A stretch of DNA of 39,532 nt from Propionibacteriaceae bacterium (GTDB taxonomy: Bacteria > Actinomycetota > Actinomycetes > Propionibacteriales > Propionibacteriaceae): NCBI GenBank assembly GCA_031267295.1, contig JAIRZI010000041.1, positions 1 through 39,532 on the forward strand, read 5' to 3'. Shown piece after piece: positions 18,331 through 33,203 of this stretch. Below the pieces are notes generated by a model that did not search any database, was not told where the DNA came from, and worked only from the letters and a program-made list of their open reading frames with translations. Each line of letters begins with the position of its first letter. Positions within the stretch are counted from its first letter, which is position 1. The position numbers and the translations under genes are program-made.

Positions 18331-18350
18331 TGTGGTAACAAGTGGTAATA
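18331..18350. promoter_or_regulatory. Tandem 10-bp repeats upstream of the peptide promoter
   Basis: TGTGGTAACA and AGTGGTAATA stand back to back, sharing GTGGTAA at a one-helical-turn spacing. They start 27 bp upstream of the -35 element, the usual place for an activator dimer. Confidence 0.5.
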
Positions 18351-18403
18351 CCCGCAATTCATGTTGAAGTTAGGGCAATGTCACAAAACTGCTTACTGTG
18401 TTG

Positions 18404-18476
18404 TGCCCCCAGCGGGACTCGAACCCGCGACCTAAGGATTAAAAGTCCTCAGCTCTGCCAACTGAGCTATAGGGGC
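18404..18476 (-). tRNA. tRNA-Lys (TTT)
   Basis: A 73-nt cloverleaf: acceptor GCCCCTA/TGGGGGC, discriminator A, anticodon loop CTTTTAA (anticodon TTT), T loop TTCGAGT. The 3' CCA is not encoded. Confidence 0.96.
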
Positions 18477-18503
18477 GCAGTTATTCTACTCCAACATGAG
18501 ACG

Positions 18504-19199
18504 ATGGACACTATGGGAATGACCGCTGCCGGGTTTTGGCTTATTCTGGGGGCTGGATTGACGCTGCTTGTTGGTGCCATCTGGGCTGATAGGCGCACTC
18601 GGATGCGTAACGGACGCACCCATTTGGGAGCCTTTGACCCGAAAGATGCCCCAGAATATGTACACATCTCAGACCTGAAATCTCAGAAACTGCCCGGATT
18701 ACCGCCCGAAGTGTTCTCCGCCGAACAGAACGCCCCACACTTGGCATTACGACTGCTAGACACCCGGTTCGCCACATACTCCGGCGGCAACTCGGTTTTA
18801 TACGATGCCAGCGTACTGGTACTCAGCGATACCGGTATCTTAGAAATACGCGAAATAGTGCGCGTGCTGCAACGCGCCGCAGCGTCCAATACACCGTTGC
18901 TACTCGCTACCACTACCGTAGCCTCCGATGTTCATGAGACACTGCTTGCTAACCATTTGGCTGGAAAACTCACCCTACAAGTGCTTTGCGACGATTCAGC
19001 AGACGGAGCCGCACTACGTGAGTTGGCGCTCATCAGCGCTGCCACTTTGATAACTCACGAAGATTTGATCGCCGACGATGTGCCACCGGAAGTATATGGA
19101 CATTTGGCACTGAGTGTAGCCACCGCCGATCCGGTGCGGGCATGGGTGGTAAAAGAACTGGTATCCCCGACCGGATTCGAACCGGCGTTACAGCCTTGA
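18504..19199 (+). CDS. Membrane-tethered GroEL-apical-domain-like protein
   Basis: A 231-residue protein with one N-terminal membrane helix (about 8-27), a basic flank (DRRTRMRNGR), a linker, and a domain from about 95 to 215. The domain follows the GroEL apical domain in order. ASVLVLSDTGILEIREIVRV corresponds to the strand and helix before GKPLLIIAEDV. NTPLLLATTTV and LLANHLAGKLTLQVL correspond to GKPLLIIAEDV and the VVNKLRGTLKV segment. ALRELALISAATLITHEDL corresponds to the DIAILTGGxVISEE segment. Equatorial and intermediate domains are absent, so it is not a chaperonin. ATG 18504 is chosen; 18513 and 18519 are alternatives. The last 12 residues are read antisense through tRNA-Glu, with which the gene overlaps by 38 bp. 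Function unknown. Confidence 0.75.
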   Translation: MDTMGMTAAGFWLILGAGLTLLVGAIWADRRTRMRNGRTHLGAFDPKDAPEYVHISDLKSQKLPGLPPEVFSAEQNAPHLALRLLDTRFATYSGGNSVLYDASVLVLSDTGILEIREIVRVLQRAAASNTPLLLATTTVASDVHETLLANHLAGKLTLQVLCDDSADGAALRELALISAATLITHEDLIADDVPPEVYGHLALSVATADPVRAWVVKELVSPTGFEPALQP

Positions 19200-20901: not shown

Positions 20902-21021
20902 GAGTCAATGTTGCCATGTTTGGGGTTATGAAATCTTGCACTTGTCCGCAAAATGGTTTAAGTAATCGCGCCTTGACAATTTTTGCTAACCCTAAACGTT
21001 TCGACTTTGCGCACCCCAGAT

Positions 21022-21052
21022 GCGCCGAGTTGGAACCAAAACCCCTCGGCGC
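21022..21052 (-). terminator. Hairpin after the acetate-kinase-like gene
   Basis: GCGCCGAG (21022-21029) and CTCGGCGC (21045-21052) form a perfect 8-bp stem. An inner TTGG/CCAA stem is also possible. It lies 11 bp past the stop at 21063. No U-tract follows. Confidence 0.5.
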
Positions 21053-21062
21053 TTGACCACAC

Positions 21063-22286
21063 TTACTTCTGAATTGTTTCAGTAGCGGGTCGTTTCCAAC
21101 CGAGCAATATTGCCGTTTCGTGTGCGATAGCGAACGCCTCCCGCTGCTGAATCACTAACACTGGAATGGCTGAGTGTGCAGTGGAGATGATGCGGGAACG
21201 CACCGTGGAGTGCGTCTTCTCATTTATCCCTGCGTCCAGTTCAACGCCAAGGCACGCTAACCGGTCACACACCGCTTTGCGCAATCGATGATCCTGCTCG
21301 CCCGCAGTGCCTGTGAATGAGATGGCTTGCGCACCACCAAGAATGACATGAAAAGCTGCAACATACGACACAATACGGTGAACACAGATACCGATGGCGA
21401 TCTGCGCCCGCTCATCTCCCGCATCGGCAGCCGCCCACACCTCGGGCATCGTCGCTAACCCGGTGAGACCAAGAATGCCGGACTCTTCATTCAATATTCG
21501 ATCAAACTCGGCGATACTCATACCGGTCTGCTCCACCACATAACGGTGGATTCCGGGATCGATAGAGCCGCTGGCGGTACGCATTGGCAACCCTTCAATC
21601 GGCGTAAACCCGGTAGATACGTCAATGGGGTGCCCGGAATCTACGGCGGAAATGGATGACCATCTGCCCAAGTAAATAATGATCTGCTTAAGTTCATGCC
21701 GCCCGGTGAGCAGCGCTACTCGCTCCGCCACATAACGATGAGTAGAGCCATGGAAACCGAACTTACGAAGATGCAGTTGATCAGAAAGCTCTTTTGGCAA
21801 AGCGTACCGTGACACAACAGCAGGCAGTTTAGCGAAAAATGCCGTATCGAACACCGCTACCTGCGGCACGCCAGGTAGCTGCTTCTCCACAGCGCGGACG
21901 CTCTGCAACGCTGCCGGGTTGTGGTGCGGGGCTAACGAAACCAACTCTTCGATTGTCTTGATAACCTCATCATTGATGAAAGTAGCCTTTGAGTACCGAT
22001 CAGCACCATGAGTGACGCGCTGTGCCACCGCTTGCAATGATGCAGTTGAAATACCTTGACTCTTAATCACCTGTAGCACAGCTAGGAATGCTGCTTCCAT
22101 GTCTGGAATATTCTGGTTGGAAGTGCAAGTGTTTTGTTCCCCTACTTCCTGCCAAATCTCGCCAACTTCGGGTTTTCCGATGCCGCGCACTTTCCCTTGC
22201 GTCAATGGTTCTTTCGTATCAACATCAAAGACGTAATACTTCAAGGTGCTGGTAGTTGCTTTAAGTACCAGAATGGGGCCGGTCAT
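21063..22286 (-). CDS. Acetate-kinase paralog with altered active site
   Basis: A 407-residue ASKHA-fold protein aligning end to end with AckA. It keeps several substrate-side residues (R in AQRVTHG, H in APHHNPA, D in VFDTAFF, H in GFHGSTH) but has lost others. The first phosphate loop NxGSSS reads LKATTSTLK. The HLGNG nucleotide motif is YLGRW. MGTR, with the acetate-binding Arg, is MRTA. GVGEN is TAGEQ, and PTNEE is QQREA. Acetate phosphorylation therefore looks unlikely, although scaffold and fold are kept. It may be a sensor of acetyl-phosphate or acetate, or act on another carboxylate. GGGAG precedes the ATG. It follows the antiporter gene by 61 bp on the same strand and is likely co-transcribed. 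A complete ackA lies at 28903-30078. Confidence 0.88.
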   Translation of the reverse strand: MTGPILVLKATTSTLKYYVFDVDTKEPLTQGKVRGIGKPEVGEIWQEVGEQNTCTSNQNIPDMEAAFLAVLQVIKSQGISTASLQAVAQRVTHGADRYSKATFINDEVIKTIEELVSLAPHHNPAALQSVRAVEKQLPGVPQVAVFDTAFFAKLPAVVSRYALPKELSDQLHLRKFGFHGSTHRYVAERVALLTGRHELKQIIIYLGRWSSISAVDSGHPIDVSTGFTPIEGLPMRTASGSIDPGIHRYVVEQTGMSIAEFDRILNEESGILGLTGLATMPEVWAAADAGDERAQIAIGICVHRIVSYVAAFHVILGGAQAISFTGTAGEQDHRLRKAVCDRLACLGVELDAGINEKTHSTVRSRIISTAHSAIPVLVIQQREAFAIAHETAILLGWKRPATETIQK

Positions 22287-22347
22287 GTTTCTCCCAAGTA
22301 GATTTTTCGTTTTAAGAAGCTCGACAAATAGCGATTAAATAGGGCGG

Positions 22348-23667
22348 TCAAACAAAAATGAAAAACCGCAGATAGATGTACACCCAGGCGATGACAACTG
22401 TGAGTAGCGTGACGGGGATACCGTACTTAGCGAACTTCCAGAAGCTGATCCTGTTGCCGTCAGAGGCAGCCAACCCGATAACGACGACGTTAGCCCCCGC
22501 CGCTACGCTGGTCATATTGCCGCCAAGGTCAGCACCGAACACAAAAGCCCACCACAATGGGCTGGCGGCACCGACATGCGAAGTGGCAGCCACCATCTCC
22601 GACACGATAGGCACCATTGCGGTGGTGTAAGGGATATTATCGACGACGGCACCGATACCGGCAGACCCGAACAGTAGGCCGGTGACACCGAGTAGTTCGT
22701 TACCCCCCATTAACTCAGCGGCAAAGTCACCCAGCAGACCGATCACTCCGATTTCCACTAACACTCCCACTAGCACGAACAGCGCCATAAAAAACGCCAA
22801 GGTCGTCCACTCGACTTCTGCTAAGAACTGGTGTGGCTTGGTGCGCGAAACCAAAACCATCAGCCCGGCACCCAGCATTGATACCACTGGCGGGTCGAGC
22901 GGAACCACCTCATGCAATCCAAACACCACCATGATGATGGCGAGTACCACTAGACAACGCACTAATAACCCGACGTTCGGAATAGCGTCCGCCGGGTCAA
23001 TGTCTCCCAGTGCCTCATCCACATCGATAACTTTTTTCATATCTTTGCGGAACATAAAAGCGAGTACTCCCACCAACACCACTAGCAAAATGACGGTGAG
23101 CGGTAGTGAGTACACCAAAAAATCTGTAAAAGTGAGATCGGCTCGGGAAGCGATGATCAGGTTCGGCGGATCACCGATCAAAGTAGACGTGCCCCCAACA
23201 TTAGCTGCAAAAATCAGTGACAACAGGTACGGGATAGGCGAGATTTCTAGTCGCTTACACACCGACATAGTTACCGGAGCAACCAACAACACCACCGTCA
23301 CGTTATCAAGAATTGGCGAGAAAAACGCGGTGACCAGTGTAAGTACGATTAGCAGCCGGATTGGGCGGCCTTTAGACATGCGCGCCGCCCACAGCGCGAT
23401 GAACTCGAATAAACCGGTATGGCGCAACACGCTGACAACAATCATCATGCCGAACAGTAAGAAGATAACGCTCCAATCAACACCGGTATGTTCACTGAAA
23501 AACGCAGATTCTGCACTGACAAGCGGCCCTTCTTTGCGGAACAACCCCAAAATCGCCATAACCGCCACCCCCCCAAGCGCCGCCGCCACCCGATGGATTT
23601 TCTCCGTAGCGATCAACGCATACGAGACACCAAAGACGACTAATGCGATGCTGGGGATTAGACCCAT
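22348..23667 (-). CDS. ArsB/NhaD-type ion antiporter (SLC13-like, P-protein group)
   Basis: A 439-residue protein of the ion transporter superfamily (CitMHS/ArsB/NhaD/P-protein) with about 11 membrane helices in two repeats. Typical segments are FFSPILDNVTVVLLVAP and ANVGGTSTLIGDPPNLIIA in the first half, and the second-repeat counterparts AVVDNIPYTTAMVPIV and GADLGGNMTSVAAGANVV. The duplicated D-N and GG-T/S motifs form the ion site. Likely a sodium/proton antiporter; arsenite or dicarboxylate substrates cannot be excluded. AAGGAG lies 4 nt before the ATG, a strong site. It is followed by the acetate-kinase paralog. Two tRNA genes lie upstream on the same strand. Confidence 0.88.
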   Translation of the reverse strand: MGLIPSIALVVFGVSYALIATEKIHRVAAALGGVAVMAILGLFRKEGPLVSAESAFFSEHTGVDWSVIFLLFGMMIVVSVLRHTGLFEFIALWAARMSKGRPIRLLIVLTLVTAFFSPILDNVTVVLLVAPVTMSVCKRLEISPIPYLLSLIFAANVGGTSTLIGDPPNLIIASRADLTFTDFLVYSLPLTVILLVVLVGVLAFMFRKDMKKVIDVDEALGDIDPADAIPNVGLLVRCLVVLAIIMVVFGLHEVVPLDPPVVSMLGAGLMVLVSRTKPHQFLAEVEWTTLAFFMALFVLVGVLVEIGVIGLLGDFAAELMGGNELLGVTGLLFGSAGIGAVVDNIPYTTAMVPIVSEMVAATSHVGAASPLWWAFVFGADLGGNMTSVAAGANVVVIGLAASDGNRISFWKFAKYGIPVTLLTVVIAWVYIYLRFFIFV

Positions 23668-28902: not shown

Positions 28903-30078
28903 TTAAACCCCAATCAGTTCTGCTGTTTGTCGCGCCATCGCTAACTCCTCGTTGGTGGGCACTACCATCACCAACAACGCTGAGTCGCCGGCGGAGATCA
29001 CGCGCACCCCGCGCGCTTTGCTCTCATTGGCTTTGACGTTCAATTTGGCTCCGAACACCCCCAACCGTTCCACTACGGCAGCGCGCACCTGCGAATCGTT
29101 CTCGCCAACTCCGGCGGTGAACGTCAACACATCACAACCGCCGAGTAAGGTGATGTAGGCGCCGATATAAAACACCAGCCGACGAACATACACGTCAAAT
29201 GCCAACTGTGCTTGCGCGTCACCCGCTACAATTTTGGCACGCACATCACGCATATCGGACGATCCGGCAAGCGCTAGCATTCCGGAGGATTTGTTGAGCA
29301 TGGTATCAACTTCTTCGATACTCATCCCCACCTGTTCCATGAGATATTTGTGTAACCCCGGGTCAACATCACCAGAACGGGTGCCCATCACCAACCCTTG
29401 ATTGGGAGTCAGCCCCAAAGTGGTATCGATGGCTCTGCCATCATCAACTGCGGAAACCGACGCACCGTTGCCAATATGGGCTACCACTTGCTTCACCGGC
29501 CGCCGCATCACTTCACTCACTTTGCTAGATACGTAATAGTGCGAAGTACCGTGGAACCCATACTTACGAATCGATAACCGTTTTGCTAACTCTGGGTCGA
29601 TAGCGTAGGTGTACGCTTCCGCAGGCAATGTGGTGAAAAACGCGGTATCGAAGATGGCGACGTGCGGCACATCAGGCAGTACCTCACGGGCGGCTCGGAT
29701 ACCATCGATACCAGCCGGGTTATGCAACGGCGCGAGCGGGGAAAGCTCTACTAGCGCTTCTATCACCGCGTCATCGATAAGCGTGGGGGCGCTGAATCTA
29801 TCACCACCATGCACGCTGCGATGTGCCACTGCCACCACACCCGCTAGGTCTGGGCCGTATTTGGTGAACAACTCCACAATTTCATGCAGTGTAGTTGCGT
29901 GGTCAGGCAGTTGTTTCTCGATGACGTATGACTCACCCGCCACAACATGTTCCACATCGCCTAGTGACATTCCGATACGTTGTGCTTGACCACCAGCCAG
30001 CACAACTTCAGATGCAACATCAATGAGTTGGTATTTGATAGAACTGGAACCGCAGTTCAGCACCAGAATTGGCTTCAT
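28903..30078 (-). CDS. ackA: Acetate kinase
   Basis: Interconverts acetyl phosphate plus ADP with acetate plus ATP in the cytosol, completing the Pta-AckA route. 391 residues. All catalytic motifs are present: LNCGSSSIKY, VAHRSVHGG, APLHNPAG, FDTAFF, GFHGTSHYY, HIGNGASV, MGTRSGDVDPG, GVGEND and PTNEE. This is the intact counterpart of the degraded paralog at 21063. An AGGTTCGATG-like context precedes the ATG (AGG about 6 nt upstream). It is transcribed after pta and a lipoprotein gene on the same strand, with a hairpin between them, and is followed by a coupled SDR gene. Confidence 0.97.
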   Translation of the reverse strand: MKPILVLNCGSSSIKYQLIDVASEVVLAGGQAQRIGMSLGDVEHVVAGESYVIEKQLPDHATTLHEIVELFTKYGPDLAGVVAVAHRSVHGGDRFSAPTLIDDAVIEALVELSPLAPLHNPAGIDGIRAAREVLPDVPHVAIFDTAFFTTLPAEAYTYAIDPELAKRLSIRKYGFHGTSHYYVSSKVSEVMRRPVKQVVAHIGNGASVSAVDDGRAIDTTLGLTPNQGLVMGTRSGDVDPGLHKYLMEQVGMSIEEVDTMLNKSSGMLALAGSSDMRDVRAKIVAGDAQAQLAFDVYVRRLVFYIGAYITLLGGCDVLTFTAGVGENDSQVRAAVVERLGVFGAKLNVKANESKARGVRVISAGDSALLVMVVPTNEELAMARQTAELIGV

Positions 30079-30264: not shown

Positions 30265-31041
30265 CTACATTGGGGGTTGAATATCTACCGGCACATCGAA
30301 GTCGAAGTAATCAATGATGATATTTTCAACCGACGATTTAATCTCGGCACGAACTACCCGGCCAGATTCCGTCAGCCAGACATCCACCGAATCAATCTGA
30401 GCTTGCTCAATAACGCCATCTCCGATAACACGGGAATGTTGCACTTTCACCCCGTTCAGCGTTGCTACTTCGATGTCTTCTACGATGCCGTTGCCAAATA
30501 GCATTGCCCAGTAATCCGTAGTTACTCCGGCCACACCCAACTCATTGTTACTATCTACTAACACTTCTTGCCACGAATCACCGACATCACGCATCCAACC
30601 TTGGGAACCGATGGTAATCAGTTCGCTGTTAGCGTCTTGCAAAAACAGCGTACCCTGCACTTTTAGGTTGTTCGGATCACTCAAGTCGGCATGAGCCTCA
30701 AAGATGACGTGCGTTGCCGCTGTTTCCGTGGTGGTACTTTCCATGCGAGTGGCGACAAATCTCAGGGTTTCCATCGCCAACCCAATACGACCGGCCAACT
30801 GCGCTGCCGCACTCCGCGGCGGCTCTGATGTCATCATAGAGCTAGGGGCATCGCTCGGAACAGTGACTTTTGGAACAACCGGCTGATCAGTTGATTCCGC
30901 ACCGCACCCGCTGAATAACACAAAAGTTGCCACCATAACCGTTAACAACTTAACTGGCCGCTGCCAAGTGGCTGCGCGCTGCGCTACTTTCCGCAAGCGT
31001 TCTGGCGGCGTTGTCGAAAATTGTGATAGCACAACCCTCAC
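30265..31041 (-). CDS. LppX/LprG-like lipoprotein
   Basis: About 258 residues. A long basic N-terminal region (residues 1-29) precedes a hydrophobic core and a lipobox FSGC, so Cys about 46 should carry lipid on the outer membrane face. The mature domain has a repeated beta pattern and a closing segment VVRAEI followed by YFDFDVPVDIQPP, which is typical of the LppX_LprAFG fold. That family binds acylated glycolipids in mycobacteria and carries them to the envelope. It lies between pta and ackA on the same strand, 71 bp after pta. The GTG start at 31041 has AGGAAGG upstream. A role in acetate metabolism is not implied. Confidence 0.75.
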   Translation of the reverse strand: MRVVLSQFSTTPPERLRKVAQRAATWQRPVKLLTVMVATFVLFSGCGAESTDQPVVPKVTVPSDAPSSMMTSEPPRSAAAQLAGRIGLAMETLRFVATRMESTTTETAATHVIFEAHADLSDPNNLKVQGTLFLQDANSELITIGSQGWMRDVGDSWQEVLVDSNNELGVAGVTTDYWAMLFGNGIVEDIEVATLNGVKVQHSRVIGDGVIEQAQIDSVDVWLTESGRVVRAEIKSSVENIIIDYFDFDVPVDIQPPM

Positions 31042-31112: not shown

Positions 31113-33203
31113 CTAGCTAACCGCAGAACGGCGCATAGCCGGGAAGCCTGCTGCCTGTGCCTGCACTGCGGTGATAGCTATCGTTGAAACGATGTCGTCA
31201 ACCATCGCGCCGCGCGATAGGTCGGTGACGGTCTTCTTTAGCCCCTGCAGGATCGGTCCGACGGCAACAGCGCCGCAGGTGCGCTGCACTGCCTTGTAAG
31301 CGATGTTACCGGTTTGCAAATCTGGAAATACAAACACCGTGGCTCTACCGGCAACCGGTGAACCCGGCATTTTGAACTCCCCTACCTCCGGATCGATCGC
31401 TGCGTCGAACTGCAGCGGGCCGTCTACCGCTAAATCCGGACGACGGCTACGCACTAAGGCGGTGGCATCCGCTACCATATCCACATCTGGGCCGACACCA
31501 GAACTGCCCGTAGAGTACGACATCATTGCTATCCGCGCTTCGATGCCAAATGCGGCGGCGGTAGTGGCGGTAGCAATGGCAATATCGGCAAGTTGCTCCG
31601 GCGTGGGGTTCGGGTTGACGGCACAATCAGCGAACATCAACACTTGATCTTCCATACACATGAAATATGAACCGCTCACCACTTTCACATCCGGGCTGGT
31701 CTTGATTATTTCAAAAGCAGGGCGGATGGTATTTGCCGTAGTGTGGGCAGCGCCAGACACCATCGCATCAGCATCCCCGCAGTACACCATCATGGTGCCA
31801 AAGTACGCCGAGTCGGCAAGCTTAACTACAGCCTGTTCGTAGGTCAATCCTTTATGTTTGCGCACTTCGGCCATCGTGGTGGCATAGCGATCAACGCGCT
31901 GCGCATCATGTAACGAAATGATCTCAGCTGCGCTGATGTCCAACCCTAGGCCGGTGGCGCGGCAGCGCACCTCGTCTTCTTCACCCAATAGCACAATGTC
32001 AGCAACGTTGCGCTCCAACACGATAGCGGCGGCTGACAATATCCGCGCGTCGGCGCTCTCCGGCAACACCACTCGACGACGCTGAGCGCGTGCTTGCTCC
32101 ATGATGTCATATTCAAATCGATGCTGAGTGCGTAAGCTGCGCCGCGGCGCATCAAGGCGACGCATAATCTCCGGCAGATTGATGTGAGTTTGCAACGCTA
32201 GATGGATTCCGCGCACTTTGCGCGGAGTTGCCATCGCAAACCCCTCAACCTCAGAGAGCACTTGCGCCACCGAATAGGTGTCCAGTGGGCTGGTCGCTAT
32301 GGGCAAATCCAGTTCCAGACCGTCTATGATGTTGCGCACTTGTTTTGGAATCTTATAGCCACCCACCAAAACCAACGCCGACAATTTTGGCATTCCTTTT
32401 GCCTTTTGACTAAGCAGTACGCCGGGCAACAGGTCTATACGGTCAGATGCCATAATCAAGGTAGTTTCGTCGGTGATACGCGCTAACAGGTGCGGAAGCG
32501 TCATGCCGGATACCGCGACATGCAAACTCTCTTGACCAAACGCATCAGCCGAACCGCGCACCACGCTAGCGGAGATAGCATCAAACTGCATCTGCACTGT
32601 CGGCGCGGAAAGCAACGCATCCTCAGGCAACACCCCCACCAGATGCTCCCCTAACTCCAGTAACTCCGTTTTTACCTCTGCGATGCAGGTGGCATCAACG
32701 CGGCTAGCCACTACTCCTATGATGTGGTTATGTAGCCGCACAAACTCATCGATAGTGTAGTGCCCGGCACGTAGCAACTGTTCCGGCGTTTTGTTTCGTC
32801 CGCTGATGAGCGCCAACACCGGAGTGTCGAGATTGGCTGCGATACGGGCGTTAAGTGTGGCTTCGATGGGAGTGGACACATCAGAGAAGTCGGAGCCGAT
32901 GACGACTATAGCGTCGTAACTCGCCCGGAGCGCACCCATCTGGGTAATCATGGTGGCGATAGCGGATTCTTGGTCGGCGGCCATCTCTTCGTAAGTGACC
33001 CCAACGGTGCTCTCGAATAACTGATCGAGATGCGCAATCCTGATGATATTTTCGGTGATCTTATCCGCGTCACGAGTGAGCACCAACGGACGATAAACGG
33101 CTACCCGTAATCCTTCGGCCACCCACGCCTCAGTTATGCCCAGCGATAGCAACGACTTACCTACCCTAGCTTCAGCGGCAGCAACGTAGACAGTTTTGGT
33201 CAT
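31113..33203 (-). CDS. pta: Phosphate acetyltransferase
   Basis: Converts acetyl-CoA plus phosphate to acetyl phosphate. 696 residues, the long three-domain type: an N-terminal P-loop-like (CobB/BioD-related) domain (about 1-200), a DRTGG-type middle domain (about 205-320) and the catalytic PTA domain (about 370-690). The latter has RRRVVLPES, SYSTGSSGVGPDVD and DGPLQFDAAI. The modified P-loop reads AAEARVGKSLLSLGI, keeping GKS. It is transcribed ahead of a lipoprotein gene and ackA, though a hairpin separates ackA. A divergent promoter region with an 8-bp inverted repeat separates it from nfo. Confidence 0.97.
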   Translation of the reverse strand: MTKTVYVAAAEARVGKSLLSLGITEAWVAEGLRVAVYRPLVLTRDADKITENIIRIAHLDQLFESTVGVTYEEMAADQESAIATMITQMGALRASYDAIVVIGSDFSDVSTPIEATLNARIAANLDTPVLALISGRNKTPEQLLRAGHYTIDEFVRLHNHIIGVVASRVDATCIAEVKTELLELGEHLVGVLPEDALLSAPTVQMQFDAISASVVRGSADAFGQESLHVAVSGMTLPHLLARITDETTLIMASDRIDLLPGVLLSQKAKGMPKLSALVLVGGYKIPKQVRNIIDGLELDLPIATSPLDTYSVAQVLSEVEGFAMATPRKVRGIHLALQTHINLPEIMRRLDAPRRSLRTQHRFEYDIMEQARAQRRRVVLPESADARILSAAAIVLERNVADIVLLGEEDEVRCRATGLGLDISAAEIISLHDAQRVDRYATTMAEVRKHKGLTYEQAVVKLADSAYFGTMMVYCGDADAMVSGAAHTTANTIRPAFEIIKTSPDVKVVSGSYFMCMEDQVLMFADCAVNPNPTPEQLADIAIATATTAAAFGIEARIAMMSYSTGSSGVGPDVDMVADATALVRSRRPDLAVDGPLQFDAAIDPEVGEFKMPGSPVAGRATVFVFPDLQTGNIAYKAVQRTCGAVAVGPILQGLKKTVTDLSRGAMVDDIVSTIAITAVQAQAAGFPAMRRSAVS

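Follow-up and report, generated by a model that had tools for sequence, protein, structure and literature searches.

A probable transporter-linked pseudoenzyme of the acetate kinase family in Propionibacteriaceae

Why does a bacterium with an intact acetate kinase gene also keep an acetate kinase homologue whose active site has largely been replaced, and why does this homologue lie next to a transporter gene? The question arises from a Propionibacteriaceae locus in a stretch of 39,532 nucleotides, the whole of which was analysed and is called the window here. A preliminary description had proposed an acetate kinase (AckA) pseudoenzyme in an antiporter operon. The features concerned are the following.

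21063..22286, minus strand: AckA-like pseudoenzyme gene, 407 amino acids (ORF; PF00871, E 7.9e-99; active-site losses; orthologues)
22291..22295, minus strand: GGGAG, probable ribosome-binding site for the gene above (read by eye)
22348..23667, minus strand: CitMHS/ArsB-like transporter gene, 439 amino acids (PF03600, 276.5 bits; PF02040, 67.4 bits; adjacent in four of four genomes)
28903..30078, minus strand: intact ackA, 391 amino acids (TIGR00016, 416.1 bits; 19 of 19 active-site residues)
31113..33203, minus strand: pta, phosphate acetyltransferase (NF004167, 731.9 bits)

The pseudoenzyme frame has 407 codons and an ATG start, with the GGGAG four bases upstream. PF00871 covers residues 5-388 of the protein with a score of 331.4 bits (cut-off 22), and TIGR00016 is passed with 316.6 bits (cut-off 293.4). 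Thus, the protein is a member of the acetate kinase family by descent. Among solved structures, acetate kinases are closest to it in sequence (2iir, E 1.2e-77). An AlphaFold2 model, for which three sequences were used, reached middling confidence (pLDDT 66, pTM 0.63). When this model was used for a structure search, acetate and propionate kinases were the best matches (Z about 30), ROK proteins and pantothenate kinases were far lower (Z 12-13), and nothing new was found outside the acetate kinases. A perfect 8-bp inverted repeat without a T run lies just 3′ of the gene at 21022-21052 and is possibly a transcript end. In both congeners described below, a short gene with the DNA-binding domain of O6-methylguanine methyltransferase overlaps the 3′ end of the pseudoenzyme gene (L034:4104-4625 and L039:3834-4415, both on the minus strand; Pfam on L034). 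The corresponding 20902-21062 segment of the window, only about 160 bp, has no such gene.

Which residues of the active site remain? Residue numbers are those of the M. thermophila AckA, mapped onto the pseudoenzymes by alignment, and some of the 19 positions examined are presumed here to have the roles given. The window pseudoenzyme retains seven of the 19 (K14, R91, H123, D148, F179, H180, and E384), while the AckA encoded at 28903-30078, which is only about 42% identical to it, has all of them. The replacements are N7 to K, S10 to T, and S12 to T; H208 to Y, N211 to R, and G212 to W (giving YLGRW); G239 to R and R241 to A (MGTRSG to MRTASG); G331 to T and N335 to Q (GVGEN to TAGEQ); and D283 to T and R285 to P. 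These results agree with the preliminary description, which had claimed a full-length AckA alignment, the loss of the HLGNG, GVGEN, and NxGSSS motifs and of the acetate-binding Arg of MGTR with the fold core and other active-site residues kept, and an intact ackA elsewhere. Compared with the AckAs of M. thermophila (1g99) and Thermotoga maritima (2iir), with which the full-length homology and the fold are common, the window protein is altered in the PHOSPHATE1, PHOSPHATE2, LOOP3, and ADENOSINE contacts as well as at R241, and its gene is linked with a transporter gene in place of pta.

Neither the window protein nor any of its three orthologues retains one of the six ATP-phosphate contacts (N7, S10, S12, N211, G239, and G331). 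Of the two acetate-binding arginines, R91 is present in all four, while R241 is Ala in three and present in the most distant orthologue only (G180). In contrast, N7, S10, S12, H208, N211, G212, G239, R241, and G331 are found in all 27 AckA rows of the tree alignment. Four further AckA rows were left out of this count as partial or long-branched; two of them (G019 and G015) have all nine residues at the positions covered, and in the other two (G056 and G035), Ala replaces both N211 and G239, while S12 is Thr in G056. N211, G239, and G331 belong to the ATP site of the M. thermophila enzyme, whose activity drops 6- to 200-fold when one of them is changed (PMC4390882). The R241A variant of the same enzyme keeps 0.4% of kcat (PMC6461089). 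Judging from the residues, the four proteins probably do not have ATP-dependent acetate kinase activity.

The G180 pseudoenzyme retains G212, R241, D283, R285, and N335, with Asp in place of E384, but is already without N7, S10, S12, H208, N211, G239, and G331. This pattern in four sequences suggests that the loss of the phosphate contacts may have preceded that of the acetate arginine, which would have followed in the other lineage. Such an order would be unlike that of a new ATP-dependent kinase and leaves room for a non-nucleotide donor in G180. V93 and L122 (window residues 92 and 121), which are acetate-pocket positions according to PMC5517563, are altered in all four pseudoenzymes. The Gly/Ser loop varies inside the clade, and Lys and Arg are interchangeable as the replacement at two sites (9 and 208). 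A more positive cleft charge in the four pseudoenzymes was not significant (permutation p 0.30, 0.19, 0.15, and 0.08).

Is this common in the family? A search of 57 related genomes and 198 family genomes gave three orthologues, two from congeners (G005, 81% identical, and G006, 80%) and one from a different genus (G180, 54%). Thus, the pseudoenzyme occurs in only four of the 198 family genomes, including the window's own (G000). The next matches in the family genomes are ordinary AckAs with at most 353 bits, compared with 452 bits for G180. A profile of the four proteins separates the pseudoenzymes (754-834 bits) from the ordinary AckAs (at most 453 bits) in 391 order genomes, where no further member was found at E 1e-120 or better apart from ordinary AckAs. 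With the same profile, the window's own genome was the sole match among 394 class genomes, a set that overlaps with the others. A scan of genome contigs hit a single locus, L033, but this is the G005 copy and not an additional member. Viral contigs, scanned with the normal AckA, contained no relative. The sample consists of four genomes, three of them of one genus and all with fragmented assemblies; the G180 gene pair lies on a contig of 3,855 bases.

In the tree, the four pseudoenzymes group together as a clade (100/100), with the AckAs of two congeners as its neighbours (96/92), and the stem branch of the clade is long (0.78 changes per column). The AckA of G180 groups with its own genus (95/95), so that the pseudoenzyme and the housekeeping gene have different histories. 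This may reflect either an older duplication with losses or a transfer of the gene pair between genera. All four genomes also have a normal ackA, although the G006 copy, which lies beside pta, is cut in its first codons by the contig end. The pseudoenzyme gene is 6.6 kb from ackA-pta in the window and on other contigs than ackA in G005, G006, and G180. Between ackA and pta of the window, a 258-aa protein with no NCBIfam match is encoded at 30265-31041 (minus strand), and the counterpart site of G006 has a lipoprotein-like ORF (L095:260-1021). On another G180 contig (L057), a butyrate-kinase-like gene, a gene with a phosphotransacylase-family match, and a ferredoxin-type gene lie side by side.

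The pseudoenzyme gene is under purifying selection. Its frame is open in all four genomes, and the dN/dS values (NG86) of the three congener pairs are 0.067, 0.080, and 0.083, which are rough because dS exceeds 1 (saturated) in all of them. For comparison, similar values were obtained for other genes: 0.051 for ackA, 0.039-0.070 for the transporter gene, and 0.077 and 0.113 for ThrE (the third ThrE pair was saturated). Among the congeners, the third codon positions are only 46-52% identical, while the proteins are 79-83% identical. The frame is thus full-length and not decayed, as had been claimed, and the broken frame in close relatives that would have spoken against this was not seen. Identical residues occupy 188 of 407 positions across the four proteins. 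At 23 columns, all four differ from a near-invariant AckA residue; the three congeners agree with one another at 18 of these columns, and all four proteins agree at 11. Since 300 of 407 positions are identical in the three congeners, 18 of 23 indicates about average constraint, not above. The residues fixed in the clade include Y205, P234, R236, G326, Q381, R382, and A384 (window numbering), and the clade-specific replacements include Tyr for His208 and Arg for Gly239. The protein is an enzyme homologue without essential residues that is conserved under selection, and in this sense a pseudoenzyme.

What is the neighbouring transporter? It passes the Pfam cut-offs of PF03600 (CitMHS, 31.9 bits) and PF02040 (ArsB, a broader model; 22.2 bits), but it stays below those of NhaD_1 (39.5 bits, cut-off 80), the NCBIfam ArsB models (97.6 bits, cut-off 457), and NCBIfam MamN. 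Thus, it is of the CitMHS/ArsB type in the sense of Pfam, and the NhaD/ArsB-type antiporter of the preliminary description is not established. The distance of 61 bp between the two genes (22287-22347) was given correctly there, and no terminator-like site was found in this gap in a simple scan. The transporter gene adjoins the pseudoenzyme gene in all four genomes. It lies upstream on the same strand in three of them, with gaps of 61 bp (window), 53 bp (G005), and 50 bp (G006). In G180, the two genes are tail-to-tail, 45 bp apart. The proposed operon is therefore compatible with the same-strand pairs but not with the convergent pair, where a shared transcript cannot explain the adjacency. The co-occurrence itself persists even after the change of orientation.

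The four linked transporters form one clade (100/97) in a 24-row tree that includes 13 rows added to cover the closest outgroups. Transporters at least 60% identical occur in 18 of the 198 family genomes, and 14 of these genomes (60-69% identity) have no pseudoenzyme, which indicates that the pseudoenzyme is dispensable for transport as such. No AckA neighbour was found at the 12 of these 14 loci examined (G204 and G205 were left out, and the downstream side in G210 is cut by the contig end), and the G004 genome has no PF00871 match at all. Thus, the transporter is found without the pseudoenzyme, but in the four genomes the pseudoenzyme is never found without the transporter. Other neighbours of the transporter homologues may be mentioned here. 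In six loci of another family (L044-L049), a CPA1/TrkA_C exchanger gene immediately precedes them (checked with Pfam for L045), and in G004 (L053) the two genes are divergent (also checked with Pfam). Among 13 other loci, tblastn found a CPA1/TrkA_C gene near the transporter gene only in G206. These neighbours are a lead towards a cation/proton role of the transporter.

I consider it fairly likely, with modest confidence, that the protein is a non-catalytic pseudoenzyme derived from AckA, which selection maintains as a partner of the transporter encoded beside it, most likely as a soluble binder of a small anion that adjusts the transporter. The conserved linkage points to a functional partnership, which is probably regulatory; the ligand and the direction of control are guesses. 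The protein retains the fold and a part of the acyl/phosphoryl-site residues (R91, H123, D148, F179, H180, and E384). A small anion such as acetyl phosphate, phosphate, or an organic acid might be bound in the remodelled cleft, and a domain closure on this ligand would adjust the transporter. A closure of the two domains on the substrates has been proposed for acetate kinases (PMC4390882). With V93 and L122 replaced throughout the clade, a ligand other than acetate may be bound. The preliminary description had suggested selection for a new role, for example the sensing of acetyl phosphate, acetate, or propionate for tuning ion exchange; the selection and a conserved transporter link stand, while the ligand and the effect on ion exchange are still proposals.

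The conversion of a kinase fold into a regulator has precedents, such as yeast Gal3. The ROK repressors (Mlc and Lmo0178) have the ASKHA fold in common with the pseudoenzyme (Z 12-13) and keep a sugar-kinase fold for ligand sensing, which is only a comparison of how they work. They belong to another family; the pseudoenzyme has no DNA-binding domain, and its partner would be a transporter. To my knowledge, no pseudoenzyme of the acetate kinase family has been described, and a search of the open-licence literature by titles and abstract openings revealed no AckA pseudoenzyme, although such a negative result carries little weight. A real partnership would connect the acetyl-phosphate node with membrane transport at the protein level. 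In that case, the normal AckA, the G180 intermediate with Arg241, and the window protein without Arg241 would also provide a natural series for the loss of catalysis and the gain of a role. A more specific form, which I offer tentatively, is a dedicated ligand sensor in which the AckA clamp would close on acetyl phosphate or a related anion and gate the transporter, coupling the fermentation state to the ion or pH balance.

Alternatively, the protein could still be catalytic, either as a phosphotransferase that uses a different phosphoryl donor or acyl substrate or as an acyl-phosphate phosphatase, and could make or remove a metabolite moved by the transporter, which is rather doubtful. H180, D148, R91, H123, K14, and E384 (Asp in G180) are retained in all four, and a new acyl substrate would require changes such as those at V93 and L122. 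The PPi-dependent acetate kinase of Entamoeba histolytica (4h0o), like the pseudoenzymes, departs from the ATP-dependent AckAs at N211, G239, and G331 (PMC4390882), so that a PPi-type enzyme is conceivable, above all in G180, where R241, D283, R285, N335, and the Asp at E384 might allow residual or different catalysis. However, the replacements are Thr, Ser, and Gln in the E. histolytica enzyme (sites taken from the literature and not from an alignment), compared with Arg/Lys, Arg, and Thr/Ser in the pseudoenzymes, and 4h0o is a weak sequence match of the window protein (E 2.2e-40). The pseudoenzymes are additionally changed at N7, S10, S12, and H208, although the E. histolytica enzyme was compared at its three sites only. 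R241 is absent in three of the four, and the PHOSPHATE1 changes together with the variable Gly/Ser loop look relaxed rather than re-tuned.

A regulatory subunit of the normal AckA, which would tune the acetyl-phosphate pool through mixed dimers with the transporter link as secondary, seems unlikely. This idea is consistent with the normal ackA in all four genomes and with the Salmonella dimer-pocket residues, which are largely kept (R174 and R304 in all four, Y308 in three, and Asp or Glu at 222; pocket according to PMC3475010). However, M230 of the pocket is Thr in all four, the gene is linked with the transporter gene and unlinked from ackA-pta, the identity with the own AckA is low, and the retained interface would equally fit a homodimer. 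Finally, a decaying functionless duplicate, which would suit the long stem branch and the narrow distribution, is highly improbable and was rejected since the four frames are open, dN/dS is below 0.1, the proteins are much better conserved than the third positions, and 188 of 407 positions are identical.

Elsewhere in the window, the ORF at 18342-19199 (plus strand) encodes a protein that begins with a membrane-spanning segment and matches GroEL weakly (E 7e-6). The opening codons of this ORF lie antisense to the tRNA-Lys at 18403-18476, and similar ORFs lie near ThrE in the congener loci L034 and L039.
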